Positions 20,161 to 55,540 of a stretch of DNA of 64,000 nt are shown here, piece after piece. The stretch comes from Polytrichum commune (Eukaryota; Streptophyta; Polytrichopsida; Polytrichales; Polytrichaceae), in assembly GCA_950295325.1 (NCBI GenBank), contig OX485807.1:16269001-16333000 (forward strand), read 5' to 3'. Position numbers and translations under genes: made by a program. The stretch's first letter is position 1. Each line of letters starts with the position of its first letter. The notes beneath the pieces were generated by a model that was not told where the DNA came from, made no database searches, and was given only the letters and a program-made list of their open reading frames with translations.

Positions 20161-23100
20161 AACACTTAACGTACGTGAACAGGGGACACACCGCCCACTT
20201 CAATTCCGACTAAGACAACGATGGCTTTCTTTCAGCATGCGGATGGCGGGGGCAACCCTAACTTATTATTAGCCCACAACCACAGTTCATAGGAACGGAC
20301 AACTTGCAAAACATCATCCACGGTTATTAACTTATAGGATGCCTACACTTACTGGTGTGGGCGATGATCCAACGGCTCTTACTAATAAGGGTTGTTTTTA
20401 GGGTTGGTTTAGTCAGTGGGAGCCATTGGATGTAACCGGTGTTGATAAGAACTATTCACCGATGTTGATATAACACTTAACGTACGTGAACGGGGGATGC
20501 CCCGCCCAGTTTGATTCCGACTAAGGGGCGGTTTACACTATGGACCATGAAGTTGGACCAGGGCTCTGCAAGGCAGCTGATTGGCTCTTGAAGTTGTCCT
20601 GGGACAACTTCGGTTTACACTAAGGAAAAAATGGCAGAGGGACCATGGAGGTTGAGGTCCCCAAAATATAATTTTTAAGGCCTAATAAATGCACTGACAT
20701 GGTCCAACGGGTTTTGCGTTGAGAGAGGCAAGAGAGGTGGTCTGGTAGGAAAAGGCAAGGGCCCATGTCAAAGAAATGCCATTTCAAGAATGTTTTAATG
20801 AATCTACCTTTTATATGCCTTAATTATATTATAGCCCATGAGACATACCAACACTATCTTGCCCTACCCTTTAAACCCGCTTACACGTGTTTCATCAAAC
20901 AACGCGGGACATCTAGAACTCAAGAATTCAAGTGCAAATTTGTTTTTTTGGTCTACCAGCTGCAATGTTTGGAATTTGGAGGCATGTAATATACCGTTGG
21001 AAAGGTCTTGAAAATACCTTTCCAACGGTATATTACACGCCCCAAAATGTTTAAAAACTACAGTTGCAAATAATAAAGAAAAATACATAGTCGTTTAGTG
21101 ATTGTAGATCAGGGTGGTCAAAAGAAGCGCAATGGGAAATCTTCTAACATTAATTATCAAAGAATTGAAATTTAGTGTTGAGCAAGGTTGGGTGGTAACA
21201 ACATTAGATATAATCAAACACTAAATATCCTATTTAGTGTAGTGAAACACAAGGTACATGTCACATGTACAATTGAATCGCTCATTTTCTTTTTGTAAAA
21301 ATTGTTGTGAGAAGATTTGCAAGCCACATCTTCGACACATTTAACAAGAAGTGAAGATAGTTGAAGCCTAAGAGATGACAAGAGAATGATCAAACTTTAA
21401 GGCGAAAAGAAGAAAAAACTAATTGACAAGATAAGTGAAGGCATGTGCAGGCAAATTGAAGTCAACAAAATGGTCAAACTTCATTTTCCCCCAAAACTGC
21501 CCTTTTTGGGCTTATATTAAAAAATCAGCACATCCACTTCTTGCCGCATGGTCATTCTTCATGGTCCACATTCGGTTTACACCTAGTGAAGGGCCCATGA
21601 ACCATGAAAACTAATATTTTAGTAACTCGGACCATGGAAGTCATCCCATGAAGTCGTCCCATGCAAAATAGGCCTCTTACGTGGGACGACTTCATGGTCC
21701 ATAGTGTAAACCACCCCTAAGACAACGTTGGCTTCCTTTCAGCACGCGAACGGTTGGGCAACCCTAACTTATAATTAGCCCGCATATGGAGTTCGTAGGA
21801 GCGGACAACTTGCAAAACATCATCCACTGTCATTAACTTATAGCATGCCTACACTTACTGGTGTAGGCGACCATCGAACGGCTCTTATTAATAAGGGATG
21901 TTTTTAGGGTTGGTTTAGTCAGTGGGAGCCATTGGATGTAACTAGTATTGATAAGAACTATTCACCCATGTTGATATAACACTTAACGTACGTGAACGGG
22001 GGACACCCCGCCCACTTCAATTCAGACTAAGACAACGTTGGCTTTCTTTCAACATGCGGATGGCGGAGGCAACCCTAACTTATTATTAGCCCACAACCAC
22101 AGTTCATAGGAACGGACAACTTGCAAAACATCATCCACTGTCATTAACTTATAGCATGCCTACACTTACTGGTGTGGGTGACCATCCAACGGCTCTTATT
22201 AATAAGGGTTGTTTTTAGGGTTGGTTTAGTCAGTGGGAGCCATTGGATGTAACTAGTATTGATAAGAATTATTCACCGATGTTAATATAACACTTAACGT
22301 GCGTGAACGGGGGACGCCCCGCCCACTTCAATTCCGACTAAGACAACGTTGGCGTCCTTTCAGCATGCGAACGGTTGGGCAACCCTAACTTATAATTAGC
22401 CCGCAGCTGGAGTTCGTAGGAGCGGACAACTTGCAAAACATCATCCACTGTCATTAACTTATAGTATGCCTACACTTACTGGTGTGGGCAACCATCGAAC
22501 AACTCCTATCAGTAGAGACCACTTTTAGGGTTGGTTTAGTCAGTGAGAGTCATCGGGTGTAACCAGTGTTGATAGGAACCATTCATTTATGTTGATATAA
22601 CACTTAACGTACGTGAGTGGGGGATACACCGCCCAACTTGTTTCCGACTAAGACACCGTTGGCTTTCTTTCAGCATGCAGATGGTTGGGGCAACCCTAGC
22701 TTATGATTAGCCCGTAGCCGCAGTTCATAGGAACGGGTAGCTTGCAAAACATCATCCACGGTCATCAACTTATAGCATGCCTACACTTACTGGTGTGTGT
22801 GACCATCGAACGGCTCTTATTAGTAGAGACCACTTTTAGGGTTAGTTTGGTCAGTGAGAGTCATTGGATGTAATCAATGTTAATAAGAACCATTCACTAA
22901 TGTTGATATAACACTTAACGTACGTGAGTGGGGGACACACCGCCCAGTTTGTTTCCAACTAAGACACCGTTGGCTTTCTTCCAACATGTAGATGGTTGGG
23001 ACAACCCTAACTTATAATTAGCATGTAGTTGCAATTCATAGGAACGAGTAGCTTGCAAAACATCATCCACGGTCATTAACTTATAGCATGCCTACACTTA

Positions 23101-23575
23101 CTGGTCTGAGCGACCATCGAACGACTCCTATTAGTAGAGACCACTTTTAGGGTTGGCTTAGTCAATGAGAGTCACTGGATGTAATCAATGTTGATAGGAA
23201 CCATTCACCAATGTTGATATAACACTTAACGTACATGAACGGGGGACACACCGTCCAATTTGTTTCCAACTAAGACAACGTTTGGTTTTCTTTCAACACG
23301 CGAACGGCTGGGCAACCCTAACGTATAATTAGCCCATAGGCGTAGTTTGTAGGAACAAACACCTTGCAAAACATCATCCAAGGTTATTAACTTATAGCAT
23401 GCCTACACTTATTGGTTTGGGCGACTGTCAAATGGAACCTGTCAGTAGAGACCATTTTTAGGGTTGGTTTAGTTAGTGAGAATCATTGGATGTAACCAAT
23501 GTTGGTAGGAACCACACCAATGTTGATATAACACTTAGCGTACATGAACGGGGGACAATCCACCCAATTCGTTTC
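20161..23575. repeat. Tandem satellite, ~311-bp unit, seven units plus a partial one
   Basis: The marker AACACTTAACGTACGTGAAC or close variants starts at 20161, 20472, 21978, 22289, 22599, 22910, 23221 and 23530, giving periods of 309-311 bases. Each unit also carries GCATGCCTACACTTACTGGT and TAGGGTTGGTTTAGTCAGTG. Unit 2 is split by the element at 20525-21717; removing it and one TAA restores 310 bases. Units grow more diverged towards the right end. No open frame is conserved between units. Confidence 0.9.
20525..21717. mobile_element. PIF/Harbinger-like non-autonomous element inserted in the satellite
   Basis: The left end GGGGCGGTTTACACTATGG, followed by ACCATGAAGT, is repeated in inverse at the right end (ACTTCATGGTCCATAGTG then TAAACCACCCC). 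TAA flanks both ends (20522-20524 and 21718-21720). A 3-bp TAA/TTA duplication with G-rich termini is typical of PIF/Harbinger. The 1193-bp interior has no transposase. It contains a perfect palindrome near 20990-21037 (core CCGTTGGAAAGG) and a block at 20940-21150 that is shared with the CACTA-type MITE in CDPK intron 2. Confidence 0.85.
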
Positions 23576-38100: not shown

Positions 38101-38228
38101 TAAGATTCTAGTACATACATACTAAGAATCGACCATCGCTTCATTCTGCTCCATAGTATCCGATGCTATGATCAATTACTCGTAATGACCCATTTCTGCG
38201 ATGAAGCGATTAATTAACCCTTGGCGCG
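35124..38228. other. Intergenic region between divergent MMS21 and CDPK genes
   Basis: The two genes point away from each other, so both promoters should lie here. I see a glutamine-codon (TGT)n tract at about 35767-35804, a (TCC)n tract at 36330-36370, and a duplicated ~55-bp block at 35530-35585 and 35640-35695. A TATA-like CTATATATAAG lies at about 37517 and may belong to the kinase. Short open frames at 35742-36050 and 36292-36561 (both -) could be upstream exons, but I cannot tie them to anything. Confidence 0.45.
35766..35804. repeat. Trinucleotide repeat (TGT)n / (CAA)n
   Basis: About 13 uninterrupted triplets, preceded by GCTGC. On the minus strand they would read as polyglutamine in a 102-codon open frame that I do not otherwise support. 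Confidence 0.85.
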
Positions 38229-41200
38229 ATGAAGACGATTGATTTATGTGACGCCGCAATGTGGTCAGGCCAGAGCAAGGGCGACGATGACCTTGAGATT
38301 GTGCCTACCAAGGTGCAAAAGTTCAAAACCCAGAAATCGGCACAAGTGGAAGGGGTGGTGCAAGCGTTGAAGGCAGCGGGCACGAAGACGAAACCGAAAG
38401 GGGGTATCACATCCTGTGTGTTGCAACGGGAGACGGAGAATCTGAAGGATTTGTACACTCTTGGGAGGAAACTGGGGCAGGGCCAGTTCGGAATCACCTA
38501 CTTGTGCATCGAGAAGGCCACTGGCAATCAGTACGCGTGCAAGACGATCGCCAAGAAGAAGCTGGTGACACACGAGGACGTGGCCGATGTGCGGAGGGAG
38601 CTTCAGATCATGCACCATTTATCTGGTACTCCACTCTTCAAACCTCGTCGAATATGTGGGGAATATCCGGGAATATCACGTGAAATATTGTCAGTCCCAT
38701 ACAACACTCTTATGGAATAATGTTATGTGGAGATTCATTTTACAAAAATATAGGTATAGATTGGGTATGTTTCAAGCATATCTACCAAATATATGGAATA
38801 TCCCATAACCAGGGTATTATTATACTTGGATTTATGCATGCACTTTGGGACAATTCCAACCGCCGATATGACGTGCACCAGAGTTCGGGAAGTTTTTGAA
38901 GCCTTAGTGGCTAATTGCCGGTAGTTGCTACGAAGGGTCGGATTTTTTCCAATTTACATCGGCAAGAGCCGGTCTTTTGTAAAATCAATCGGCCAATTGC
39001 CTATATTTTCATATTTTCATTGGCCAATATCCGATTGAATGGAATTCATATCGGCACTAATTGTTTAAAAAATGTATGAAAAGTTACTAGAAATCATTTC
39101 TTAGTACAAAATCTTGAATAAGTGAAAAGAAAGGCATGTTCAAAACTTTAAATTTGAAGAGTTAATATCCTTGGCAGGAATTGAACCTAGCAATGCCTTC
39201 ACCGCTTAAAGGCCAAGGGTCCCCCAATTCTTCATAGAAGCAATTGGATTTGGTCATGGAAAGGTTGCATAATTCAAAAAGTTTAAGGTTTAGGGTACTT
39301 CCTCAAGTGCATCATCAGATGCCCCAGACAAATAGCGCTTTGGATTGCTATACAAATAGCGAAACTTAGCAACATCCTTCCAAAGATCTAGAGCACTTGT
39401 TAGTATTTGAAATTTGAATACTTCTTCCGGTTGAAATCCAGTAACTCACAAGAAGAATTAGCTACATTTCCAGGACATTTTCTGGCCCATCGGCTAATTG
39501 CTGGAGGATTGAAATTATAGTCGGATTACCATCCGATGGATGGAAATTTGGACCGGCCATGAGGGGAAATTCATCGGCTGATAATGAACTAGCCGTCGGT
39601 TTTCCCCGACCATTGACGTGCACTAGATTGCAGAACTACACAAATATGGTGGTTGGAGGACATGGAATACAAACGATAGAAGTTGTGGTTGTTGTCGTTT
39701 GATGTTTTTGTTCCCATGAGTGCACATCCCTTGATTGTTTTTGTTCGAGTGGTTTGTCCACATATACTTACGTGTCAGTTCCATGAAACTGCACATTACT
39801 TCAAAGCCTTGCTGAAGAAAAAATAAAACACCCGCTTATCGCACGTGCCACACCAAGATTTGATTTAGTGTGGCATTACAATTGGTGTGTTGTGTTAGAT
39901 TAGAGAGCTCTTTGTGACTTGTCATATAGCATCAAGTGTCATATGGCGTCCTCTCTAGTTGTCACCCAATGATTGCAAGACAATTAACGTAGATCATGAT
40001 GAATGGTGTGGGCCACACTAATTTATGACGTTTATTGTAGGTGACATTGACGAGCTCAAACTTCCTAACGTTATTTAATAAGTGGGGAGAGCACGTTCTC
40101 CCCATGTTCTCTTTCTTTGGGAATTTTCTTCGTTACATTCACTTTGATTCTAGATAAAAGTGCACAAACTTGCATATTTTAGCTTCATTTGTAGCTTGAA
40201 GTTGAAGTGAATGGGAGGGAAATAGTAGATTTTATTAAGGTATGTGTGCCTTCAATGAACAATTTAAGCTCTGAACCCACTTCTTATAGGTTATGAAATA
40301 CGCAATCACTCAGTGTGAGATCGTGCCTGTAGCCATTTTTCTCATAATATTTGGAGCTTATATATATATATATATGTCATTGTCAAAGGAAAAATTCTCT
40401 TTCTTATTGAATGATCATATAAGTCTCCCCCCAATATTATGTCTACTAATAAGCCTAGAATGCTAAATGTACATAGTCCAAATTCTTTAAACACATGTTT
40501 TTTTGGTGTGCACTCTTAGATCCACACCTAACCACACACCACTCAAATATAGGTGTTTGTTGAAAATGCGAAACTGAATTAGGTATGCTTACCTTAAGTG
40601 GAGAGAGAATGTCTTCTCTTCTTGAGATAATCTTAATTGATTGCATTTTGATTCTACAATAGAAATGCACCAGACAAAAAAAATCTATCAATTTTAGCCT
40701 AACTTTGAAGTGGATGGCATAGTAAAGTAGGTCTTGTTAAGGTATGTGGATGTAAATCAAGGCATTTTTAGCTTTGCACCCACTCCTCCTAGAACAGTAT
40801 ATAAACATGCAATCGGAATGCAATCTTCATTGTGATCTTTGAAACTTGTGGCATGCGTTTGGTGGGCCAATAGTAAAAGATATCAAGCCCTTACTTGCAT
40901 GTGCCTACGATGGTGGAGCTTTGGTCCCTCCTCCATTGGGGTTTGATGTTCAAGTTCATGGCCAAACATCTATCTATCTATCTATCTTACTTCGTGTGTG
41001 TGTTTCCACGATACAACCACAACATTTATCTATCAAGTCTTATGAGCTTGAAATGAGTTGTATATGTGCAAGTGGAGTTGACACAATCAAATGATCTGGA
41101 GAGTAAGGTAGATGGTGCTCAAACCAACACCTCACCCGAAACCAACACCCAAAAATCTTGTCCAAGATCTAAACTCACGACCTAAGAATGCGAGCAAGAT

Positions 41201-44200
41201 TTCAGGACGTTGGTTTTGCCCCACAAGAATGTCCACGATCACCTCATGCCCGATCACACCAAACTTTCCATCCTATTCCAACCGTGGAATTGTTAGGCAT
41301 CATGTTCAAAAAGAGATGTTGGCCCACCACTTTTCACACTATTACAAATCGGAGATGGCGACAGATGGTGTCTGAACCGGCCGGTGTGATCAGCCCCTCA
41401 ATCAACGTCAAGCTCCCGTGTTGGTTCCCGTGTTGCCAATACATACTTCAAACACTCATAACATCCGCATACGGGATTCAAATAAAACACAGTAAAGTTG
41501 GGTAATTTGACCTATGGTACCTATATCTTAAAAAAACTCATATAATCAGGTCTTTAACGCAATCCCATGCTTCTGAAAGGAATATTCATTTCGTATACAA
41601 AAATCACATTCTTTGTTGGAAGGGCTCCAAGAAGTTCCTACGTTACAACAAATTATATCAGTCGAGATTGGACTCAAATGCATTATAAGTGATTACAACA
41701 ATCAGGGCCATATAAATACGGGAGTTGCATACCCGGGCAGGCCACCTACCGATACAACCTTCAAACACTCACAACATCCGCATACGGCATCCAAACGACA
41801 CACAATTTAGTGCGTCGGAATCCAAGAAGTTCCTACATTACAACAAATTATATCAGGCGAGATTGGACTCAAATGCATTATAAGTGATTACAATCAGGGC
41901 CTTATAAATACGGGAGTTGCATACCCGAGCAGGCCACCTACCGATACAGCCTTCAAACACTCACAACATCCGCATACGGCATCCAAACGACACACAATTT
42001 AGTGCGTCGGAACCCCCTCCTCAATCGCTCGCTCATGATCCTCCTCCACCGCGCTCGCTCGCTTCCTTCCTTCCTCCCTTCCTCCCTTCCTCCCTCCCTC
42101 ACTCGCCACCCCTCTCCCTCTTCCTCTCGCAGGCTACCCGAGCATCGTGACCATCAAGGGCGCGTACGAGGATGCGCTCGCGGTGCACCTGGTGATGGAG
42201 CTGTGCGCGGGCGGCGAGCTGTTCACGCGCATCACGAAGAAGGGCCACTACAGTGAGGCGGCGGCGGCGGAGGCGACGCGCACGATCGTGGGCGTCGTCG
42301 AGGTGTGCCACTCGATGGGCGTGATCCACCGCGACCTGAAGCCCGAGAACTTCCTGCTGCTCGACGACTCCGACGCGGCGCCGCTCAAGGCGACCGACTT
42401 CGGGCTGTCGGCGTTCCACCGGCCGGGCGACGTGTGCCGGGAGGTCGTGGGCAGCCCCTACTACGTCGCGCCCGAGGTGCTGCGCAGGCGCTACGGCCTC
42501 GAGGCCGACGTGTGGAGCGTGGGCGTCATCGTGTACATCCTGCTGTCGGGGCTGCCCCCGTTCTGGGCCGAGACCGAGAACGGGATCTTCCTGGAGATCG
42601 TGAAGGGGAAGCTCGACTTCGAGTCCGAGCCGTGGCCCAGCATCTCGCCCCAGGCCAAGGACTTGATACAGAGGATCCTCACCGCCAACGTCAAGAAACG
42701 GCTCACTGCTCGTGAGGTGCGCCCCGTGTGGTCGTTGGTTTCAGTGATGGGGGAGATTTTTGGGCATAACTGGTTGAGATCCTGGTGTGTCCGGCAAGTC
42801 CGACCGGTTACATGTTGACATCCTCCGGGTTTCCTATATGAAATTGGGGTATATTCTTCCATAGATTCTTCTAGAATGATTCCTCGGTAATTCTCCTGCA
42901 GTCTTCAACTTCAACCGGTTATTCCTCAAACTCAACCGGTTCGTCTGTAACTAACTGCCAGTTCTCCCCAATCATAGGTTGGTTTCCAATTGGGTCAAAG
43001 ATCCTAGTGTTTCGTTCCCGAGTTCTACCGGTTACACGCGTCAGCGTCTTTCGGTTGTTTCTTTGTTTTATGATTTGAGGTGTGTTCTATAGATATATTC
43101 CCCTAAAAACGATGGGTATTGTTTCCTCTGAAGTCTTGAACTTCAACCGGTTGTTTCTCCAACTCAACTGGTTCATCTGTGACCAGCGGTGGGTTCCCCC
43201 CCCCCCCCCGCATTCACTAGTGGAAAACATTGCGAAAAAGAAAATTGCAATCGTTTTTCCATTGTGGTTCTTTTGACCGACCTGCTCTGCAGTCGCTAAA
43301 CGATTACAAATTTGTTTTTTTGGTTTACCAACTGGAATTTCAGGAAGTTGGGGCTTGTAATATACTGTGAGAGAGGTCTTGAAAATACCTTTCCAATGGT
43401 GTATTACACACCCAATAAATTTTAAAATTACAGTTGCAAAGTAAAATAGAAAAAATTATAGTCGTTTAGTGATTGCAGAGCAGGGTGGTCAAAAAAATCG
43501 CAATGGGAAAACAACTGCAATTTTTTTTGCATAGTTTTATACTAGTGATTGAAGTGGCTATTACATGACTCCACGTCACCGTAGCTGACTAGATCAAAAT
43601 CCATTTGGAGCTCTGATCTCATCCTTTAGTGACGAATTTAGCATGATGTTGGCAAGGGTGGTTCAAACCCAAGCCCTTCACCCGGATCTCATGGGAGCTA
43701 TGAGGTAAAGTTGCCTTAGGTTGATGATGGTGTTGGCAAACTCAACAAAACTTTCATGCTCATGAGCTTTGCATTAATAACTTGCACCACCCACCCACCC
43801 ACTCACTCACTCACTCTTTTCGACGCGATCACGGCGGTTACATTGTAGGTGTTGAACCACCCGTGGGTGCGTGACAAGGGAGTGGCGCCCGACAAGCCCA
43901 TCGACTCGGCCGTGCAGACGCGGCTGAAGCAGTTCTCGGCGATGAACAACATGAAGAAGCTGGCGATCCGGGTGATCGCGCAGTCGATGTCGGAGGAGGA
44001 GATCGCGGGGCTGCGCGAGATGTTCAAGATGATGGACGCGGACGGCAGCGGCGCCATCACGTTCGAGGAGCTGAAGGAGGGGCTCCACCGCGTGGGCTCC
44101 AACATGCGCGAGGCGGACATGCGCGACCTCATGGACGCCGCCGACGTCGACAAGAGCGGCACGATCGACTACAGCGAGTTCCTGGCCGCCACGATGCACA

Positions 44201-46174
44201 TGAACAAGGTAATCAATCTCATGCCCGTAGTTCTCTTCTCTAGCAGCTTGGGCATCTTTTTGCTTAATAATTAATCAAAGTGCATAAGTAATGTCCCCTC
44301 CCCACCTAACTTTACCAAATAACCAAAGTTTTTTCTAAAACCCGGGTAAAGCTCCCTCGGTTATAGGGGAGGCATCCGGCTATCCCAATGCACCTACAAG
44401 AATTTGCTTCGGAGTAGTGATCGGGGAGATTTTTGGACATAATCGGTTGAGATCCTGGTGTTTGCAAGTCCAACCGGTTACATGTTGACATCCTCCGGTT
44501 TTCCTTTATTAAATTGGGGTATATTCTATAAATTCCTCTAAAATGATCGGTAATTTTCCTGCAGTCTTGAACTTCAACCGGTTATTTCTCAAGCTCAACT
44601 GGTTCATCTGTAACTAACTGCCGGTTCTCCCCGATCATTGCTCCGGAGATTTTTGAGTAGGTTTTAGTTAAGTAGCTTTTACACATGTTCATGGTTTTAT
44701 CTACCAAGCAATGAATGTTGGATAGTTTTTGTCCCATCCCCAAATCCCTTACTACTCGTCTATCTTACCATCGGTTTTTGTTAATGGAGCTCCTCATGCC
44801 CTCATAGCTAAGACTAAAAAGCAACCAATCACAAGGGCGGGAGGCGAAACTTTTAAAAGTCCTATATTCTTGTCTCATGTCTAGGTACCGATGGGAGGGT
44901 CGGTGCTTGGGGCTTAAAACCTCCACTTTTAAGCCATGCCACATCATTTGCCAACTAGGCTCGGCACTAAATAATGTCAATGGTGTGGAGGCCGTGTTTT
45001 CAAAACCAACTTTTAGGCTTCGCTAAAGTCAGGTGGGGAGGGGGCATAAGTTAGGCAACCCAAAAACTAATATTCCAAAATTGGGTAGATTCAAAAAGTA
45101 ATTTAAAATAAGTTAGACATTCATCCAAGTCATTTCAATAATTCATGGATGGCTTTCCTAATTTCATCTATGGTAGCTACGATTAATCTAAACGCTTCTC
45201 TTAACCAACATTCCTTACCCTAAAGTTTGTCTTTTACTTGTATGTCACTTGTTGAAGTTATTTGATGCTACTTTGTTGGATTCCAGTGAATATCATTTGC
45301 ATTATTGTGATTCTAAACACTCAATGGAAATTAATTTCTCAAAAATTTGGCACCGTCAAACTTAGTTATCTTCTGCCCAAACTGCTAGAGAACTACAATA
45401 TTTATATTAAAGTAATTTGGACCAAGGTTTAGTCTAGGATCGTAATCTATTGAATCGACTCCATAAACCCATTTCAAAGTCACATATGAGCTTGTCGCTA
45501 TGATCAAGGTGAAGTCTCTCTCTCTCACTCGCTCGCTCGCTCGCTCGTTTAGTGGGATCCTTAAATAAAATATGTGAAGATGATCACGATGATATCAAAC
45601 ACGACGATCCTCATTATTCATCGGTCGATTATACAGATGCTTAATTGAAAGAGTAGTACTTTGGTACTTTTCATCATTTTTTATCAGTATCATCTCATTC
45701 GAATTATCATCGTTGAGGAGTCACATGTCTCCCGTTAAAAAAAGTTGATGTATCGAGAGCGTACCAACAGGTCCGCCCATAGAATCGATCGATCGAGGCA
45801 ATCAACCAAACCAAAAAGCCTCGATCGCTTTTGCAAAGCACGTCAATTTCATAGACTTGAAGACGTACACACACTGCACTTGCCATGGATGGCAGGTGGA
45901 GCGCGAGGAGAACCTGGTGGCCGCGTTCCGCTACCTCGACAAGGACAACAGCGGGTACCTGACCACGGAGGAGCTGCAAAGCGCGTGCGAGGAGTTCAAC
46001 ATGGGCGACGTGAAGATGGAGGAGCTCATGCGTGACGTCGACCAAGACAACGACGGGCGCATCGACTACCACGAGTTTGTGACAATGATGCGCAAGGGCG
46101 ACACCGCCGGGGGTGTCGCGCCTCGCAAGACGAAGGCTGTCGAAGCCACCTTCAACTTCGCCGACGCCATGAAG
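38229..46174 (+). CDS. CPK: Calcium-dependent protein kinase (CDPK), four core exons
   Basis: Exons 38229-38625, 42133-42716, 43849-44208 and 45896-46174 join in frame (phases 1, 0, 0) into 540 residues. The protein is a Ser/Thr kinase activated by Ca2+ through its own calmodulin-like domain. An N-terminal variable region (1-75) is followed by the kinase: glycine loop GQGQFG (83-88), Lys105, HRD 198-200, DFG 221-223, APE 245-247. An autoinhibitory junction (about 336-370) precedes four complete EF-hands whose loops start at 390, 426, 462 and 496, each with Asp at position 1 and Glu at 12. There is no Gly2, so no N-myristoylation. Exons 2-4 have nearly all G/C third positions; exon 1 is less extreme. 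The frame runs past 46174 to a stop at 46229-46231 if the intron is retained; otherwise see the candidate exons to 47606. Confidence 0.93.
38640..38727. mobile_element. Degenerate MITE, family A, right part
   Basis: GAAATATTGTCAGTCCCATA and the end AATAATGTTATG match the right arm of the copies at 743-909 and 10277-10444. It starts about 15 bases after the splice donor of CDPK exon 1. Confidence 0.55.
39170..39235 (-). mobile_element. tRNA-like fragment (SINE head or decayed tRNA) in CDPK intron 1
   Basis: On the minus strand there is TTGGCCTTTAAGCGGTGAAGG, a box-A-like block, and about 14 bases on GCTAGGTTCAATTCCTGCC, a box-B-like block. The distance is shorter than in a normal tRNA, and I find no acceptor stem, so a functional tRNA is unlikely. 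Confidence 0.4.
41626..42012. repeat. Tandem duplication of ~195 bp just before CDPK exon 2
   Basis: Copy 1 (41626-41820) and copy 2 (41821-42012) both run from TCCAAGAAGTTCCTAC to TTTAGTGCGTCGGAA and differ at only a few bases plus a 3-base gap. High identity means a recent event. The second copy ends about 120 bases before the splice acceptor and is followed by a CTTCC-rich pyrimidine tract. Confidence 0.9.
42748..43200 (+). repeat. Two adjacent copies of repeat family D in CDPK intron 2
   Basis: 42748-42976 is bounded by GGGGAGATTTTTGGGC and AGTTCTCCCCAATCA, which pair as terminal inverted repeats. A second, more diverged copy at about 42985-43200 repeats CCTAGTGTTT, ACCGGTTACA, GTCTTGAACTTCAACCGGTT and ends at a C-run. 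Copies elsewhere: 44419-44639, 23836-24040 and 2305-2400. Confidence 0.7.
43215..43547. mobile_element. CACTA-type (En/Spm) MITE in CDPK intron 2
   Basis: The element begins CACTAGTGGAAAAC and ends GTTTTATACTAGTG, with ~90-bp terminal inverted repeats and ATT on both sides (43212-43214 and 43548-43550). CACTA termini with a 3-bp duplication define the CACTA superfamily. The 333-bp body is non-coding. Its centre, with GGTCTTGAAAATACCTTTCC, also occurs inside the element at 20525-21717. Confidence 0.9.
44419..44639 (+). repeat. Repeat family D (MITE-like) in CDPK intron 3
   Basis: It starts TGATCGGGGAGATTTTTGG and ends GGTTCTCCCCGATCA, an inverted pair. The interior carries ACCGGTTACATGTTGACATC and CAGTCTTGAACTTCAACCGG. 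This is the best-preserved copy and the best guide to family ends. I could not define a target duplication. Confidence 0.7.
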
Positions 46175-46376
46175 GTGAGATCGTTTGATTCCCCCGTCGC
46201 TTTGCATCCAAGTTATATGGTGGTAACATGAAAAACGTCTCCTAATTTGCCGATTGAAAGAAGGTTAAAGAGATGGCGTCGATGTTGTTAATTTGGCGTG
46301 GATTATGTATGGTGTTGTTTGATCTTCAATTTTCTATAAGCCTATTGTAACTAAAGAATTTTGCCTTTTTGCAAAG

Positions 46377-48100: not shown

Positions 48101-48997
48101 GTATAGTAAAATTAACATTAATCAATGAGAGTTTACAATGTTGGCTTTTCACTCCCCTCACAACCTTCCATTTCTAACCTTTTGGCATCCATATACACTT
48201 CGCTTGATCCATACACACGAATTATAGACGAGAGAACAAGAAACAAGAAAAGACAAATGGGGAGCAACAACCTCACACACGAGCAATTCTCTTGCACATG
48301 GATCATCCCAACTAGGAATACAATAAAATGAGTCAACGACGACACATCCTCAACACCCACAATCTAACATGCGACCATAACTTTTCACTTGTAAACAATT
48401 TTCTTTGCAAACAATACAAAATAACAGAACAGATGAATACACAAACAACAATAACTTATTATAATCATTAGACACAAGATTTGTATGCCCACCCATCAAA
48501 GCATCCCAACTCACCCTCATTATCCAAGAATGCAACCCCGACAAAGACATACAAGCCACACAACTAATCATACAAATACAACTCCAAAACACTCTAATCC
48601 CTGATTACACCAAAACCTACATAACTACCATGACAAAAAAAAAAAGAGGCTAATATGACTTTGGGATCAACACTCATACAACATATGCACCCACCACCCC
48701 AAACTTTTGAAACCAAACTAGTATGGTTCTCGAATAGATACACCACCATACTACCAAAGAAAAAATAAAAATAAAAATCCAAACACACCCTTCCCATAAA
48801 CCAATGCCATAGTATCCACCCCACAATAATCAATCCCATCATCAAATCGTTTTAACTCACACATTCATACTTTTCCCCAACCCTCACATGGCCAACCCCC
48901 CTCAAGGGATACACCTCACCCCACCAAAAAGACATAATATTCAACTCACAAGGCAAGGCAATATCCTCACAATGGAATGGTGCAAGATACATACAAA
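48101..48997. other. C/A-rich flank left of the retrotransposon
   Basis: G is strikingly rare on this strand while C and A are abundant (words such as CCAACCCTCACATGG, ACCACCCC, CAACACCCAC). The same skew returns at 54132-55540 on the other side of the insertion, so it was one block of about 2.3 kb before insertion. No intact gene is readable on either strand. A decayed element depleted of C on the minus strand is one reading. Confidence 0.5.
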
Positions 48998-49027
48998 CAG
49001 CTCACGTTCCCTATTGGTGGGTGAACA
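48998..49027 (-). repeat. 28S rRNA fragment (30 bp) at the 3' end of the retrotransposon
   Basis: An identical 30-base block lies at 54099-54128 on the element's other side. On the minus strand it runs TGTTCACCCACCAATAGGG to GTGAGCTG, which I recognise as the 28S rRNA segment around the A-loop. Beyond it, at 48997 and lower, the sequence is not ribosomal. Confidence 0.85.
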
Positions 49028-49911
49028 TAGTCGGGGTTCGGGGGGTGGTCGTGCGGAGGGTAGGTATCTTAGGTTAATTCTCCCTTTTGCCGTATCCATC
49101 CCCGAATCTACACTAATGCCCTTTAGTGTTGGGGGGGTTCTCGTCTCTCGGGCCTCCTTGGACGGCTTACCGGGGCCTCGTTGGGTTATTTCCTAACGAG
49201 TTAGTCCTAGTGTTATCTTTCACTAGGTTTTAGAACGGGCTTTGTTCTAAGGGCAAATATTCGGTTGTCCTCTTTATTTATGTATAAATTGAGACTTTTT
49301 ACACATCTCCCGGTAGGTGGTTGGTGCCGTCCTTGGTTCGGGACGGTCCTCACCTCCGCCGAGACGGGTCGTGGACCCCGACCTAGTCTTAACTTTATAA
49401 AATGATTGACTAAGGCCCGGAGGCGGATTTGAGAACCTAAGCTGATCTAGACCTAGTTATATGGGTGGCTGGACGGATGGCCTTATTGCCTATCCGTCCG
49501 TCCTCCCGAACTCTTAGAGTAAGCATTACTCTAAGCCGTAAAAGACATGCCTTTTACGACTACTTTATTACTCTAAGATATTTGGATTTACGGCGGTGCT
49601 CTTTGCGCCCATCTAGCGGCGTTATTTAGCACTTTGTAGTAATATTTGTCGATTTGTGTTCGGTTCGGCATTTGAGGTTGTTCCGCTGTCGCTTCTCGTG
49701 ATTGGACCTCCCATTCTTCACGTTGCCGTAGATTCTCGCAATATTTAAAATACTCCCTTCTAAGCCATCGGCAATGTGGGACCCACGTTCCCGCCGCTTC
49801 ATTCGGGAAATTTCAACGTCGATTGTGGAGCTGATCGCGTACTATCCACAACTTGTGGTTGTAATTGCCTATCACCTGGATGATCTGATGGATCACCCAT
49901 GACGTTTGCGC
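49028..49911 (-). other. 3' untranslated region of the R2-like element
   Basis: About 880 bases with no protein signal and no A-tail at the junction with 28S sequence. It contains several foldbacks, for example CGTAAAAGACATGCCTTTTACG near 49537-49558. In R2 elements the structured 3' region is what the protein binds to start reverse transcription; the same role is inferred here. Confidence 0.6.
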
Positions 49912-50607
49912 TTAAGGTTGGAGTTCGCGCAGGACTTGTTTAATCGAGGCCGGTATGGTTCCCATTACTCCAACTATCATCGCGCGGAACCGCACATCAC
50001 TATGCGGGAACCTACGGCAAAATACATCGACTAGCTTGTTGTACTTATCCGTTTTTTGCCGTTTAGCCAACGCGATTGCGTTGTCCATTGTAACCGAGAT
50101 CTCCCATATCTCGATTTGATGGTTTCGTCGAATCATCTGCCCGTCGTCGCCTCGCCTCGCCGGGGGCTGATATTGAAATATCAGGTCGGGCCTTCGACTT
50201 GTGATTTGGGCATCATTCAAGATGTCCGGGAATATTAGGGCATTTTCTGCCGGAATGCCCCACGTATTTTCGGCCATCCAAATTTGGAACGAGTCGAGCC
50301 TCCCGAGTTTATCTTTCTCCGCTCGTAATTTTATCCAACAGTACAATTCGCACACTACCTTGTCGTGGCGTTTGGTGCGGATTGCCTCATATAACGGATA
50401 TCTACACCTGCAAAATAAGTGTTTGACCGTTTCTCTCTTCCGTTCCCGGCAGTTGTCACAGAAAATTTCACCGCGTCTCATCCAGGTTGTTACTACCAGT
50501 AGTACATTGAATGCCGCGGCGATCATCGTTTTGTATTCAGGCATGCTTAGGCTCGCGGTCCGGATCCATTTTCGACTTCCCGCGGCGTGGGCCCCACTAT
50601 GCGCAAA
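49912..50607 (-). pseudogene. R2-like ORF, C-terminal part: CCHC knuckle and restriction-like endonuclease
   Basis: This is in the same frame as the preceding segment, separated only by a TAG at 50608-50610. A CDNC…H…C knuckle (C-x2-C-x9-H-x4-C, followed by basic residues) precedes RPDLIF, EIWEISV and a K-x2-KY motif, the order seen in the PD-(D/E)xK endonuclease of the R2 clade, which nicks the target for primed reverse transcription. Catalytic-type residues look intact. The frame ends at a proper stop at 49912. Confidence 0.82.
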
Positions 50608-51405
50608 CTACTTCGAGGCGATATTCTCGACAATTTCCAATCCGTCTCGATGGTATACCGCCTTTTTCGTATACGCCTTCAGTTCTAACTTCGCCATTTC
50701 TAACCTCTTTTGCGCATTTGGACCCGTCACGTCGCTGAATAATCCAATGACTTTTACCCTTTCAAGCCCTTCGAGGTCCCCGTTGCGGATGTCCACCTTA
50801 ACTGGGCCATCCGCCGTGATTCTTACCCCAAGGGCTTGACATGCGTGGTATAAAAATGCCATGTAAGTCCGGCCTTTACCCTTACCCCGCGTTCCGATTT
50901 TACGCCTTGCCTTAGGGTCCGTCTGGGTTGGCTCCCAATACGCCAAATTTTTAGTCTTCGTATTCTTGTCGCGTACGGTGTTGCCGTACACCAGGTCCCA
51001 GTCCATGAAAATCTTGCCTTGCGGGGCCCGCGGGATTCCAGCCGCCACGCGTGCCTCTTCCACCATATGCCGAAATATGATTCGTATCTGCGGGTCGAGA
51101 TTGTTTACGAACGCGTACGCCGTATTTACCAACATTGAATCCCGTATTGTCCGGAAATTCGGTAACCTTAACCCGAGATGATCCGTGCTCATCTCGAGTT
51201 GCCGTTTGCCCCCTCTTCGAGATGGCCATCCCAAAATCCGCCTCGCCGCGCCGTGTTGGATCATGGTTGCCTCATCCAAGATGTAATTCGGCGGCGGGTT
51301 CATCGGACAAAAGATTTCTATCAACGGCCGCGCTGCCTGAGATAAGAAATCCAATTTTCCCGCGTAATGGAGTTTATGGATGCGCGGGGTATCTAATTGA
51401 GTCAC
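50608..51405 (-). pseudogene. R2-like ORF, thumb and linker segment
   Basis: The frame picks up after a shift near 51424-51437, next to a run of four G's; in the shifted frame LAKFKARVTQ leads straight into this segment, which a true thumb region should do. It contains HYAGKLDFL and a long basic linker before the TAG at 50608-50610. Nothing is missing in length compared with R2-type proteins, so only point damage separates the pieces. Confidence 0.75.
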
Positions 51406-52016
51406 CCTCGCCTTAAATTTGGCGAGGGCCCCTTACCTTCGTGGGCCTTCCGTCGTTCGTCATCCGGGCTCCGCAGCAACGACGGCTTTTGATTGGTCTT
51501 TGCGGATGCAGGGGCCTTATGTTCCCCTAGATACTTAAAGGTTTCGTAACCCGCGAGCTGTGGGATTGCCTCGCCACAAAGGTTGAAGTTGGCTAGTTCC
51601 ACATCTTTCCCTCGTCCCCGTACGAACTCCCGGCCCCAATACGCACATTTATGGATGCCAAACCGCATTCCCGACCACTCGGCAAATTTGATTTGAATTG
51701 TCGTCATTTTACGTATTTCCTCCTCCATATCGGTGACGTGCACTTCGTCATCCATATAATCCATTCTTTTCACCTCGATTTCCGTTATCGCATATCCGCG
51801 GCATTCCCGTTCAATCCATTTCGCGACCGTTTCCTTAACGACCGCGAAGATCAAAGGATTGATGGTATTATCTTGTGCTACCCCCCTCGTTATCGTAATC
51901 GTTTCTGATGCCTCGCCATTTACAATTAATCTTACTTGATTACCCAATGCCGTCTCTTTCCACATGTTACGTAGAATCGGGCAAATGTATAAAATGTCAA
52001 TCGTTTTTACGATCAA
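51402..52016 (-). pseudogene. R2-like ORF, reverse transcriptase palm with YMDD
   Basis: This holds the RGVAQDNTINPLIF segment (motif B) and YMDDEVHV (motif C, catalytic Asp pair), then a WSGMRFGIHKC block typical of the next motif. Most non-LTR enzymes have Gly where this one has Asp in QDN. It is joined to the upstream segment by a frameshift close to 52016-52030: both frames run up to the overlap without loss of conserved sequence. Confidence 0.85.
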
Positions 52017-53302
52017 ACCAAGGGTAGCGAGGTAAACGCTCCCTTAAAGTCGGTAAATAGGCAATATAGGTTGTTTTTCCTATGCCTACTATCCTCCAAA
52101 ATTGCCGTAAGTTTGAGGTTCGCATCCCGGGAGCCTGCCACTCCCGGATTTACCCCCATCTGAAAAGTAAAGGGCATATGTATATACGCCCCCCGAACCG
52201 TTTCCCGTATCGTCTCGTACACCACGAAAGTGATGTACTTGCTGAAAATCTTAAAGAACACCGGCAATAAAGTTACCGGCCGTAAATTTGGAGCTTGTGT
52301 ATTTGGTGCTCCGGGTTTCGGGATATAGAACACAAATCCTAGCTTATAGGCTGGATAGATTAAACCTAGTTTAGTCTGCAGGCTAAACGTGTGGATTAGC
52401 CACATTATGAGGGGCATCTTCTCGCATTGCCGTAAAGTTCGATACGTGATTTGATCGTATCCCGGCCCCCGGTTCCCATCACCCTCTCGTAAAATCCGCC
52501 ACAGATTCTTTATTACCAGGTCGTTTACATCATTTTCAAGCGGCTCGATGCGGAACGGGGTCCTTGGCGCCACTTCATTCTGCCATAATGCCCTTAAGTA
52601 TTCGTCGCCCCTCGGGAACGGGGCGACTTGCTCCGCCGTCATAACTTCTCCCGTAAAACTAGGGCGGGCGAAGTCATATAACTCCGCCGTCGTGGCCTCC
52701 ACATTGGCCCGACTCGCCCCCCCCCCTCCCTCGTACATCCAGCGGTGGAACTTGTGTACCGAGCCAATGTATTTTCGGTTCAATGCGGCTTTACCTTCGC
52801 GGTGTAATCTGTTTACGGGGCGTTCGTCTTCGCGTGGCTCCTCTGCGTTGACCCCCCGCATCGACGTCGCCGGCCAGTGTTTTACCGTCCCGAAGATTCT
52901 AGTTGCCGCTAGGTTGAGGAGCCACCGTACTACCATATCTACCTTCTCCCCTTTAATGACATCCATTTCCCTTTCTGCCTTTGCCAACTGTTTAAGGCCA
53001 TATTTAAATATGGCCTTAGTCACACCTTTAAACCGTTTCCGTGTTTTCGGTTCAAAATTCTTTACCATCGCTGCCGGTCGAAAACGTAAATCTTCGATGC
53101 TTTCATTATTCCGTAAGATCATTGCCATCTTCATCTTGAAGTCGGCAATGATCGTGTTATCATTTGTCATATCTCCTACTACCGGTTTTGTGGTCCATCG
53201 CATAGCCCGTCCAATTTGGCTATGCATGGCCCGCCATTCCCTATTCTTAGGCGTCCAGTCTCCCTCCCGAAGGTCGATCCGTGCTCTCTCCTCCGGTGTC
53301 AT
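52013..53302 (-). pseudogene. R2-like ORF, N-terminus and first RT motifs
   Basis: 429 codons from an ATG; an in-frame TGA two codons upstream supports this start. Residues 15-35 (WTPKNREW … MRW) could be a Myb-like DNA-binding motif, as in R2. I find no C2H2 zinc fingers here or in the 180 bases upstream, which most R2 proteins have. RT motifs follow in order: RGPGYDQITYRTL, IPKPG, NLRPVTLLP, QMGVNPGVAGSRDANLKL and FTDFKGAF (motif A with its Asp). Confidence 0.82.
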
Positions 53303-54059
53303 CTTACCTCATACCTACATCCCACTTTCTTTTGGTTAGTAATTTCCGCTTTTTACGCAGCTGCGCCTAGGTTGGTCCTAAGTGTACTCTCACTAACCCC
53401 GCCTACTCCTAGGCTAGTTCAAGGTATCTCCTCAATCTCGTTATGATTTCTCGCAAGTATGTGGTATCTATAACTTCGGTAATTCCCCGCTTGTGGTAAC
53501 TTGGTAATTCCCCTCATGTGGTAACTTTTTTCCGGTAACTCCCTCCTCTATTGTATCCCCTTTGCCTTTGGTTTTGCTTCTTTCCCCTCCTTGTCCCTCA
53601 TTCCTTCCGAAGGGAGGAATGAGTAACATTTTACCGTCCTCTATTGTTTCCCCTTTACCTTCTATCTTGCTTCAATTTACCTCCTTTGCCTCATTCCTCC
53701 CGGAGGGAGGAATGAGTAGCATGTAGCCGTCTCTTTGCCCTCATTCCTCCCGAAGGGAGGAATGAAGAGCCTTTTACTAGTCCTTATGTTTATCGAAATT
53801 CCTCTTGGGGTGGCAACATTATTAGTTGCTCCCTTTCTTATTCATTTCGTAAATTCTCTTCCACCCCCCTTGATATCGTGAGCATATTAACCTCTCCCTC
53901 GGGTACGGGATGGTTCTACTTAGCGGGGCGTCTTTTCTTCCTCTTTGTTTAAGTGATTGTTATTTTCATCAGCCCGGGGGGGGCCTCGAACTTGGATTGT
54001 TCGGACGCACTTTAGACCGCGGAGATAGGCTAGGCGCTATGACCACCTCCGCATCAATG
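53303..54059 (-). promoter_or_regulatory. 5' region of the R2-like element with three repeated hairpins
   Basis: Three 26-27-base palindromes, CTCATTCCTCCC with a 3-base loop and GGGAGGAATGAG, lie at 53597-53623, 53690-53716 and 53740-53765. Next to the 28S junction an inverted pair, CTCCGC (54047-54052) and GCGGAG (54019-54024), closes a stem of about 22-base loop. R2 elements often begin with an HDV-like ribozyme at this place; that role here is inference only. Confidence 0.6.
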
Positions 54060-54113
<54 letters not shown>

Positions 54114-54131
54114 ATTGGTGGGTGAACAATC
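54060..54131 (-). rRNA. 28S rRNA gene fragment (72 bp, peptidyl-transferase-centre region) at the 5' end of the element
   Basis: On the minus strand it reads from GATTGTTCACCC through GAGCTGGGTTTAGACCGTCG and GTGAGACAGGTTAG to TTTTACCCTACT. This is continuous eukaryotic 28S sequence from the A-loop helix into the peptidyl-transferase-centre strand. Element sequence starts where 28S would continue with GATGACAG. It is a fragment, not a functional rRNA gene. Confidence 0.88.
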
Positions 54132-55540
54132 AAACAACAACACATGAGATACATTGGGTTAGGTTGCCCACCGAAGAAAGCCCCCATAATATCTTAATAA
54201 TGACCCTAAATCATAAAGATTGGACACCCCAAACACTATCACCCAAAAATCACTAGACATACATACTATTGCCAAAATCCCTCCAAACACCCTCATATAC
54301 CCACCTGCTCCACAATGGCCCACTTACTACATTCAACACAAAATCACTCTCATCACAATCATGTGCACACACAACCAAGACACCCCCACCCACCCAACAC
54401 GCATTTGCACCACAACTACAACAAGCCATGCAAGAAGCCCATAGCTTAACAATACCAACACACAACCCAACCATTACCATAAGACTCTAACAAAATGGTC
54501 AAATTCCCCAAACAGACTTTGTGGATTCCAATATATATGCAAGCATAACTATACATCATATGGCTAGCCCTAGCCAACATTCAAAACCTCCCCCATGACA
54601 TCCACATATTTACTAACAATCTCAATAGTAAATACCACATAAACAACCACATCCGACGACCACCCACCCATATAACATCTAGACAAATTCCTTATATCCT
54701 TCATAATACATCTCACCACATGGTTCCAACATAAAATCACCATGCAAAAGGTCAAATCACACACATGCATTTTGAGCAACGCAGAAGCAAACACACTCGC
54801 AAATGATGGCACCCTCAAAGACTCCTTTGGCCATGTACCACACATAGCACAAACAATGTCCTCTAGACTAGCCAAACCTCTATTCATCAAGAAACCCCAC
54901 ATGCATACTAAAAAACTTACAAATCTTTTCATCCAAAAATAATATACAAGACTAACAATCAATTAGGCCACCCTAAAATTCCAATATGTGGAAATGGATT
55001 AGCAATGACGTCCACATTGACCAAAAATTGTCAAACCACGTATGGAAAACCTCACACACTAATGCCTAGATAACACAAACATCAAAAATCTGATTTTCCC
55101 AACACATTGATAATCATAGAGAAAACTTATTTTGGCCCCACATACACACAATCCCCAACGGCACACTTTGCAATGAAAACGTCAAAGACACATGACCACA
55201 CCTACCATCTCTATGCGAAAACAAATTTCTCAAAGGACTTGAAATAGCAAGACACAAGGCCGCCGTTTATTAACTAACAAACCTACTCAAATCACACATA
55301 CCTACAATACACTACACCTCACATTCATTATTGCTAGCACAAAAAATAACACGCTCCACAACAACACCATCCCACCATCGATGCTTAGATGTACATGCTT
55401 AGTGAAACTTAGACCAAACATCATCTACATAAAAGGCGTAGCATTCAAACAAACCAAACCATCAATCCCCATGCCCAACCTCTCCATCCAAATTATCAAA
55501 ATCACATTTAGACATGGTGATTACATTGACCAAGGTATCG
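54132..55540. other. C/A-rich flank right of the retrotransposon
   Basis: The continuation of the G-poor, C/A-rich block at 48101-48997 (for example CACCCCCACCCACCC near 54382). A 130-codon open frame at 54570-54962 (-) is a by-product of the skew and shows no family feature. No gene is supported. Confidence 0.5.

Follow-up and report, generated by a model that had tools for sequence, protein, structure and literature searches.

A restriction-like-endonuclease-type non-LTR retrotransposon family in Polytrichum commune with 25S/28S rRNA pieces at its ends

A stretch of 64,000 nucleotides of the land plant Polytrichum commune (assembly GCA_950295325.1, contig OX485807.1, positions 16,269,001 to 16,333,000 of the forward strand; hereafter the window) was found to carry on its minus strand a dead copy of a non-long-terminal-repeat (non-LTR) retrotransposon of the restriction-like endonuclease (RLE) type, bordered at both ends by pieces of 25S/28S ribosomal RNA (rRNA). 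Together with further copies in the same genome (given here by L numbers), it very probably represents a family of RLE-type elements of a land plant, for which the 25S/28S rRNA gene is the most likely home target. Listed below are the element and the features at its ends:

49028..54059, minus strand: RLE-type non-LTR retrotransposon, element proper, dead copy (5032 bp; ends set by 28S junctions common to other copies)
54060..54131, minus strand: 25S/28S rRNA piece at the 5' end, GATTGTTCACC...TTTTACCCTACT (72 nt; Rfam LSU_rRNA_eukarya; inner junction the same in L009, L010 and L061)
48998..49027, minus strand: 25S/28S rRNA piece at the 3' end, TGTTCACC...GTGAGCTG (30 nt; exact repeat of part of the 5' piece)
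53992..54033, minus strand: segments of the 5' untranslated region (5'UTR) antisense to the 28S piece, CTAGCCTATCTCCGCGGTCTAAA (54033-54011) and GAACAATCCAA (54002-53992), predicted from duplex energy

Ribosomal RNA pieces at the ends of the copies

The Rfam model LSU_rRNA_eukarya matched positions 54055-54150 with 81.4 bits (E 8.1e-20), and a 30-nt direct repeat (48998-49027 and 54099-54128) makes the two rRNA pieces overlap in one 28S stretch. The end points 49028 and 54059 given in an initial annotation of this DNA proved exact, each being the element base that adjoins an rRNA piece; absent from that annotation were the pieces themselves and the long interspersed nuclear element (LINE) into which the element had inserted.

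The 3' end could be read in 15 copies (the window copy, L009-L019, L048, L044 and L060), five of which carry a 28S tail (window 30, L012 59, L018 27, L048 21 and L044 41 nt), a count which is not to be read as a frequency, since a 3' junction search was what turned up L044 and L048. All five tails begin at TGTTCACC right after CCCGAC(T/A)(A/T), with 0 to 3 mismatches each, and the remaining ten copies have 0-5 matching 28S bases at the 3' end or end earlier. The 5' junction was readable in nine copies, with a 28S piece present in all nine. This piece ends at CCCTACT in the window copy, L009, L010 and L061, and near GGTTA in L018, L048, L059, L062 and, in mutated form, L057. L057, L059, L061 and L062 had been found via a 28S search and L048 via the 3' junction search; among the 11 other copies from a 3'-end search that required no 28S, three reach the 5' end (L009, L010 and L018) and all three have the piece. 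In seven of the nine copies the start of the 5' piece is no more than about 10 bases away from the start point of the 3' pieces, and in L009 and L061 the piece is shorter. The 28S junctions lie at TGTTCACC and CCCTACT, not at AAGGTAGC, the site used by R2.

All copies read lie outside arrays of rRNA genes (rDNA) and most 5' pieces start within ~10 nt of each other, as they might if the 28S-like stretch were a fixed part of the element's own 5' end, with dispersed insertion normal and rDNA not the home. This is unlikely, however, as 28S is also matched by independent 3' tails (21-59 nt), always beginning at the same base, and the 5' junction varies by subfamily (CCCTACT or GGTTA). In addition, the 28S piece is about 96% identical to that of the window (L018 96.9% over 64 nt, L048 95.7% over 47 nt) while the bodies of the elements are 67-71% identical, a difference that would follow from renewal of the rRNA part out of rDNA at every cycle.

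The 5'UTR of the element may pair with this rRNA, with GAACAATCCAA matching TTGGATTGTTC at the presumed nick site and CTAGCCTATCTCCGCGGTCTAAA matching the middle of the 28S piece. For the first 150 element bases of the window copy the duplex energy had a z of -4.6 against dinucleotide shuffles (300 per copy, made by a simple rejection method), none of which was as low. In eight of the nine copies z lay between -3.3 and -5.4, with L059 at -2.2; no shuffle was as low in seven of the nine, one was in L062 and nine were in L059. The core CAATCCAA is kept in seven copies (window, L009, L010, L018, L048, L061 and L062) and not in L057 or L059. In an alignment of the copies, the antisense segment is followed by a putative hairpin (GGCC..GGCC, GGC..GCC, GGCTTA..TAAGCC). 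In R2 ribozymes, a P1 stem is described as forming between upstream 28S and the element (PMC3774820), and the arrangement seen here is similar to that stem; any self-cleavage would be hypothetical. A box C/D or hammerhead reading of the TGATGA of the window copy was dropped, as most other copies have CCGATGA or CCAATGA.

It should also be noted that 28S stretches occur in other dispersed repeats of this genome. One such repeat (L022-L028, L031 and L032; on scaffolds C1, C2, C3 and C7) has 28S stretches ending in CCCTACT(C/G)ATG followed by non-rRNA sequence, and in L024/L031 it holds two 28S copies 365 bp apart. At least two further families (L029, L030, L033 and L034-L039) have in common ~300 bp of the 3' part of 28S. 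Open frames are present in L027, L029 and L034. At L051 (1500-1620), a 28S piece around the R2 site was seen by eye within an apparent MULE-type transposase gene.

Insertion sites and target duplications

Both flanks of the window copy belong to one decayed LINE, for which L072 provides an unoccupied relative:

48216..48981, plus strand: left flank, part of a decayed dual-endonuclease LINE that matches L072 frame residues 1468-1724 in two pieces (joint tblastn E 1.4e-28)
54134..55539, plus strand: right flank, another part of this LINE, matching L072 frame residues 1735-2284 in pieces (joint tblastn E 2.3e-14 and 4.2e-42)

The insertion was found to occupy a single point of this LINE. Compared with L072 the empty site is short by about ten bases, a gap which at 30-50% protein identity is within the uncertainty of the alignment, and there is no rRNA at the L072 site. 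Both rRNA pieces of the window therefore arrived with the insert, and the window copy is probably an ectopic insertion of a retrotransposed rRNA co-transcript in an old dual-endonuclease LINE. The 30-bp flanking repeat was also considered as an ordinary target duplication and rejected, as the 28S sequence extends past the repeat at the 5' end; the differing tail lengths among copies and the pre-insertion relative without rRNA further rule this out.

Duplications of non-rRNA sequence were found outside the rRNA pieces at other ectopic sites. L048 is flanked by a 91-bp duplication (score 147, reached by 0 of 200 shuffles, the best of which scored 29), and at L018 a block of 21 bp, lying in the register of a duplication 64 bp long, was likewise reached by none of 200. 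At the 5' junction of L048 (190-226), 37 bases of telomere-like filler (CCTAAACCC-type) lie between the 91-bp duplication and the 28S piece. For the source 28S gene itself, an element placed between CCCTACT and a second TGTTCACC would imply a 69-bp duplication (56 bp in the older subfamily).

With 28S on both sides of the element and many dispersed 28S fragments in the genome, the locus might be taken for an rDNA orphon holding an element and moved by recombination instead of retrotransposition. This is very improbable, given that the unit sits at a single point of the LINE with only about ten bases missing, that L048 has its 91-bp duplication, and that the tails vary in length while their start base is constant.

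The LINE relative is itself of some interest. L072 (886-7998; G000:C5, from 33407885, plus strand) has an open frame of 2371 residues, running off the fetched stretch, with an APE domain (Exo_endo_phos_2, 9.7e-8), a reverse transcriptase (RT; 1.4e-32), an RNase H (1.3e-14), and a CCHC knuckle with an RLE-like end (hhalign against R2 RLEs, P 6.8e-5, probability 63.5%). Judged by these predicted domains, this land plant has a Dualen/RandI-like LINE with two endonucleases, whereas a 2015 survey gives Dualen/RandI for green algae only (PMC4438587). An RT length of 801-807 bases, as in L072, was found in 13 of 150 RT matches scored; three of the 13 were read, and among these L072 alone was read well past the RT.

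Coding region, clade placement and genomic spread

The coding region of the window copy was read in the following pieces, downstream of a repeat in the 5'UTR:

53541..53777, minus strand: 5'UTR palindromic minisatellite in which a CTCATTCCTCCC..GGAGGAATGAG motif occurs three times
52013..53308, minus strand: frame piece 1, N-terminal region and RT to motif A (431 aa; PDB 8c8j 2.7e-6; L1 ORF2 chains 6.6e-6 and weaker)
51402..52043, minus strand: frame piece 2, RT motifs B and C, YMDD at 51758-51747 (RVT_1 1.6e-6; PDB R2Bm 8gh6 best, 1.3e-4, then L1, 8.1e-4)
50608..51432, minus strand: frame piece 3, thumb/linker region, terminating at TAG (runs on into piece 4 in L010 and L011)
49912..50607, minus strand: frame piece 4, CCHC knuckle (50460-50404) and predicted RLE, RPD at 50193-50185 (hhalign against R2 RLE)
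49588..49812, minus strand: C-terminal tail of the frame, beyond stops in the window copy (contiguous in L010 and L011)

The initial annotation had described this frame as near-intact. The RT, knuckle and endonuclease can indeed be read in pieces, but the frame is broken by two frameshifts and at least two in-frame stops (TAG after piece 3 and TAA before the C-terminal tail). The younger copies L010 and L011 read on for ~110 residues past the TAA of the window copy and have no stop at the TAG place or in the tail; they are frameshifted at other places. The start of the frame is the same in L009 and L011 as in the window.

The RT has the catalytic site YMDD and is of LINE type, with RVT_1 scoring 54.0 bits in L011, over the family cut-off of 29.6, and 28.4 bits on the window piece, under it. 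The knuckle preceding the endonuclease is of CCHC type with a spacing of CX2CX9HX4C (50460-50404), one residue longer than the spacing published for RLE clades (CX2-3CX7-8HX4C; PMC5678591), and is without the R that many RLE clades have between the first two Cys residues; a zf-RVT match of 0.0022 in L010 was under the cut-off of that family. The RPD..E..K..Y stretch that follows, which begins at 50193, could be aligned to three R2 endonucleases in the PDB, with PD and K..Y in register. A profile of family members compared with these three by hhalign gave a score of 33.9 (P 1e-4, probability 58%), reached by none of 60 column shuffles (best 17.2), with the reversed profile at 13.0; plain HMMER against the PDB did not detect the similarity. 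By sequence profile, a C-terminal RLE is thus predicted, as the initial annotation had read from the motifs at this end of the protein, and its proposal that a land plant carries a non-LTR element of the RLE type is supported by the RT, the knuckle, this profile and the spread of the family in the genome.

In frame piece 1 (431 aa), no zinc finger, APE or other Pfam family was found. The first 250 residues of the window frame contain no Cys, and in them an N-terminal zinc finger, a usual feature of R2 (PMC13188248), was not found; a Myb domain may still be present. Neither APE nor RNase H was found by Pfam in the pieces of the window copy, L010 or L011, so that the domain set of Dualen/RandI is not that of this element.

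Membership of the R2 clade, as initially proposed, was neither shown nor rejected by the RT. In a 12-row RT tree, which included three R2 RTs, L1s and the dual-endonuclease LINE and was built without R4, NeSL, CRE and Hero, the element has a long branch outside the three R2 RTs (97/95) and outside L1 (95/94), and an earlier RT tree gave the same placement. This tree is not decisive, as approximately unbiased tests rejected neither a grouping with R2 (p 0.14) nor one with the dual-endonuclease LINE (p 0.26). By BLASTP the RT scored 81.6 bits with human L1, 80.1 and 74.3 with the dual-endonuclease LINE of the same genome, and 70.9 (9nl2), 51.2 and 46.6 with the three R2s; by RT profile against the PDB, 8c8j (judged by sequence to be an L1 ORF2 chain) scored 41.4 bits and R2 9nl2 40.5.

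These scores also bear on the suggestion that this is an ordinary plant L1 or RTE element with endonuclease motifs arising by chance, for which could be cited the best BLASTP match (human L1, above R2 9nl2), the grouping with L1 on one side of the best tree (weak support, 76/79) and the weak zf-RVT match. It is hardly credible, since the N-terminal piece has none of the APE endonuclease of L1 and RTE, the RLE profile matches, no poly(A) end is present, and the L1s of the host group with human L1 without the element (95/94).

The window lies on a 52.9-Mb scaffold of an assembly of 408 Mb, of which 406 Mb are in seven large scaffolds (42-78 Mb). A six-frame search for the endonuclease, in which 150 of 544 candidates were scored, yielded 37 matches at 25 places, the window included; these are on all seven large scaffolds and on a small contig, C50, whose match has the score and length of one at a C4 place. 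At the weakest of these places, identity is 31% across 64 residues. In the final 301 bases, 11 other copies are 99% to 71% identical to the window copy, and over longer stretches the three closest are 94.4, 94.0 and 92.9% identical, L012 74.5% and the others 67-73%. The Pfam family SAM_LFY (LEAFY), which we take to be plant-specific, was over cut-off at four places (C1 and C7) and in none of 14 control genomes, a weak control in that the three named ones are prokaryotes. Single-protein scans produced 44 pattern matches in genome contigs and three in viral contigs, with none confirmed.

Contamination of the contig is excluded by the matches on all seven large scaffolds, and identities running from 94% down to ~67% indicate long residence in the genome. 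The family is an old resident; the horizontal transfer that had been raised initially found no evidence in its favour, and nothing points to a recent one. An origin in animal contamination or recent transfer from an animal, for which a rotifer 28S element located away from the R2 site and having a long duplication (R9; PMC5035012) might speak, can be dismissed, given that a genome with LEAFY has the family at some two dozen places spread over seven scaffolds of chromosome size, and given this range of identities.

A possible retrotransposition cycle and relation to known elements

A cycle consistent with the end structures can be proposed. A nick between GGAT and TGTTCACC in the 28S gene would prime reverse transcription, and the other strand would be cut 56-69 bp downstream, duplicating the target bases TGTTCACC...CCCTACT. 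Copies resident in rDNA would be transcribed along with the rRNA, and the co-transcript might be shortened to a point close to where the duplicated stretch begins, perhaps through 28S and 5'UTR folding together like a ribozyme. The window copy would then be a dead ectopic integrant of such a co-transcript.

Several results weigh against this cycle or against a home in rDNA. A search of the assembly with a pattern for the R2 site (up to 2 mismatches) had five matches, all of them in rDNA fragments, and revealed neither an occupied rDNA unit nor an intact one; the home site is therefore one that we infer. An HDV-type ribozyme was not detected, Rfam on 301 bases matching LSU rRNA alone. No outer duplication was found at the window copy, L009 or L010, nor at the 5'-truncated L011 and L012: the 250-bp flanks of the window copy scored 41 (best shuffle 37) but away from the insertion point, and the 160-bp flanks scored 26, which was reached by 11 of 200 shuffles. 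For the endonuclease, hhalign's own probability is no more than 58%, and in the tree the three R2 RTs group without the RT of the element.

Of the known systems, R9 of bdelloid rotifers is close in several respects. Like the window element it combines RT and RLE, and its target duplication is reported to measure 126 bp. R9 belongs to the R2 clade and has, as is suggested here, a 28S site other than that of R2 and a long target duplication (PMC5035012); the present family differs in its plant host, a probable duplication of 56-69 bp and the lack of any R2-type zinc finger found. Target duplications have been described for R8, R9, R4 and CRE elements (PMC3636483). R2 itself (R2Bm and avian R2) has an RLE homologous by profile and the 5' pairing of 28S and element which the predicted pairing here resembles (PMC3774820), whereas the 28S site, the long duplication, the N-terminal zinc finger not found here, the catalytic site (F/YADD in R2, YMDD here) and the RT placement outside the three R2 RTs set the two apart. 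The Dualen/RandI elements of green algae are approached through the dual-endonuclease LINE of the same genome, both in RT (BLASTP 74-80 bits) and in RLE (hhalign 34.5, best of 60 shuffles 24.5), and differ in the APE and RNase H not found in the window element. The planarian LIN9/24/26_SM, likened by description only, target 28S and come from a paper on RLE-type elements (PMC4640811). The L1 and RTE LINEs of land plants share the LINE-type RT and the host, and differ in having an APE endonuclease and A-rich or TTG-type tails (PMC9033089, PMC3747384).

A 2022 review of land-plant elements names L1 and RTE as the only LINEs (PMC9033089). In titles and abstracts among the matches listed, no land-plant LINE was met that lives in rDNA or is of the RLE type, a search with most subscription journals and Repbase reports outside its coverage, so that a catalogue entry may exist. 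Living in rDNA has so far been described for such mobile elements mostly in animals, and the 28S ends suggest the same in a plant. If true, the R-element way of life would extend beyond animals, and this plant RLE lineage would offer a natural rRNA-gene insertion system for plant rDNA biology and a site-specific integration enzyme evolved in a plant genome. A broader proposal, advanced here only tentatively, is that land plants hold their own long-lived lineage of rDNA retrotransposons apart from R2, with its own 28S site, a duplication of 56-91 bp, and host 28S rRNA forming half of the RNA structure that frees the transcript. Host rRNA would in that case be both the target and part of the processing signal.

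Elsewhere in the window, protein-kinase and EF-hand pieces at 38214-46228 (plus strand) were read as a calcium-dependent protein kinase gene, pieces of a purple acid phosphatase lie from 61213, and a tandem array of six 311-bp units is present at 21717-23575.

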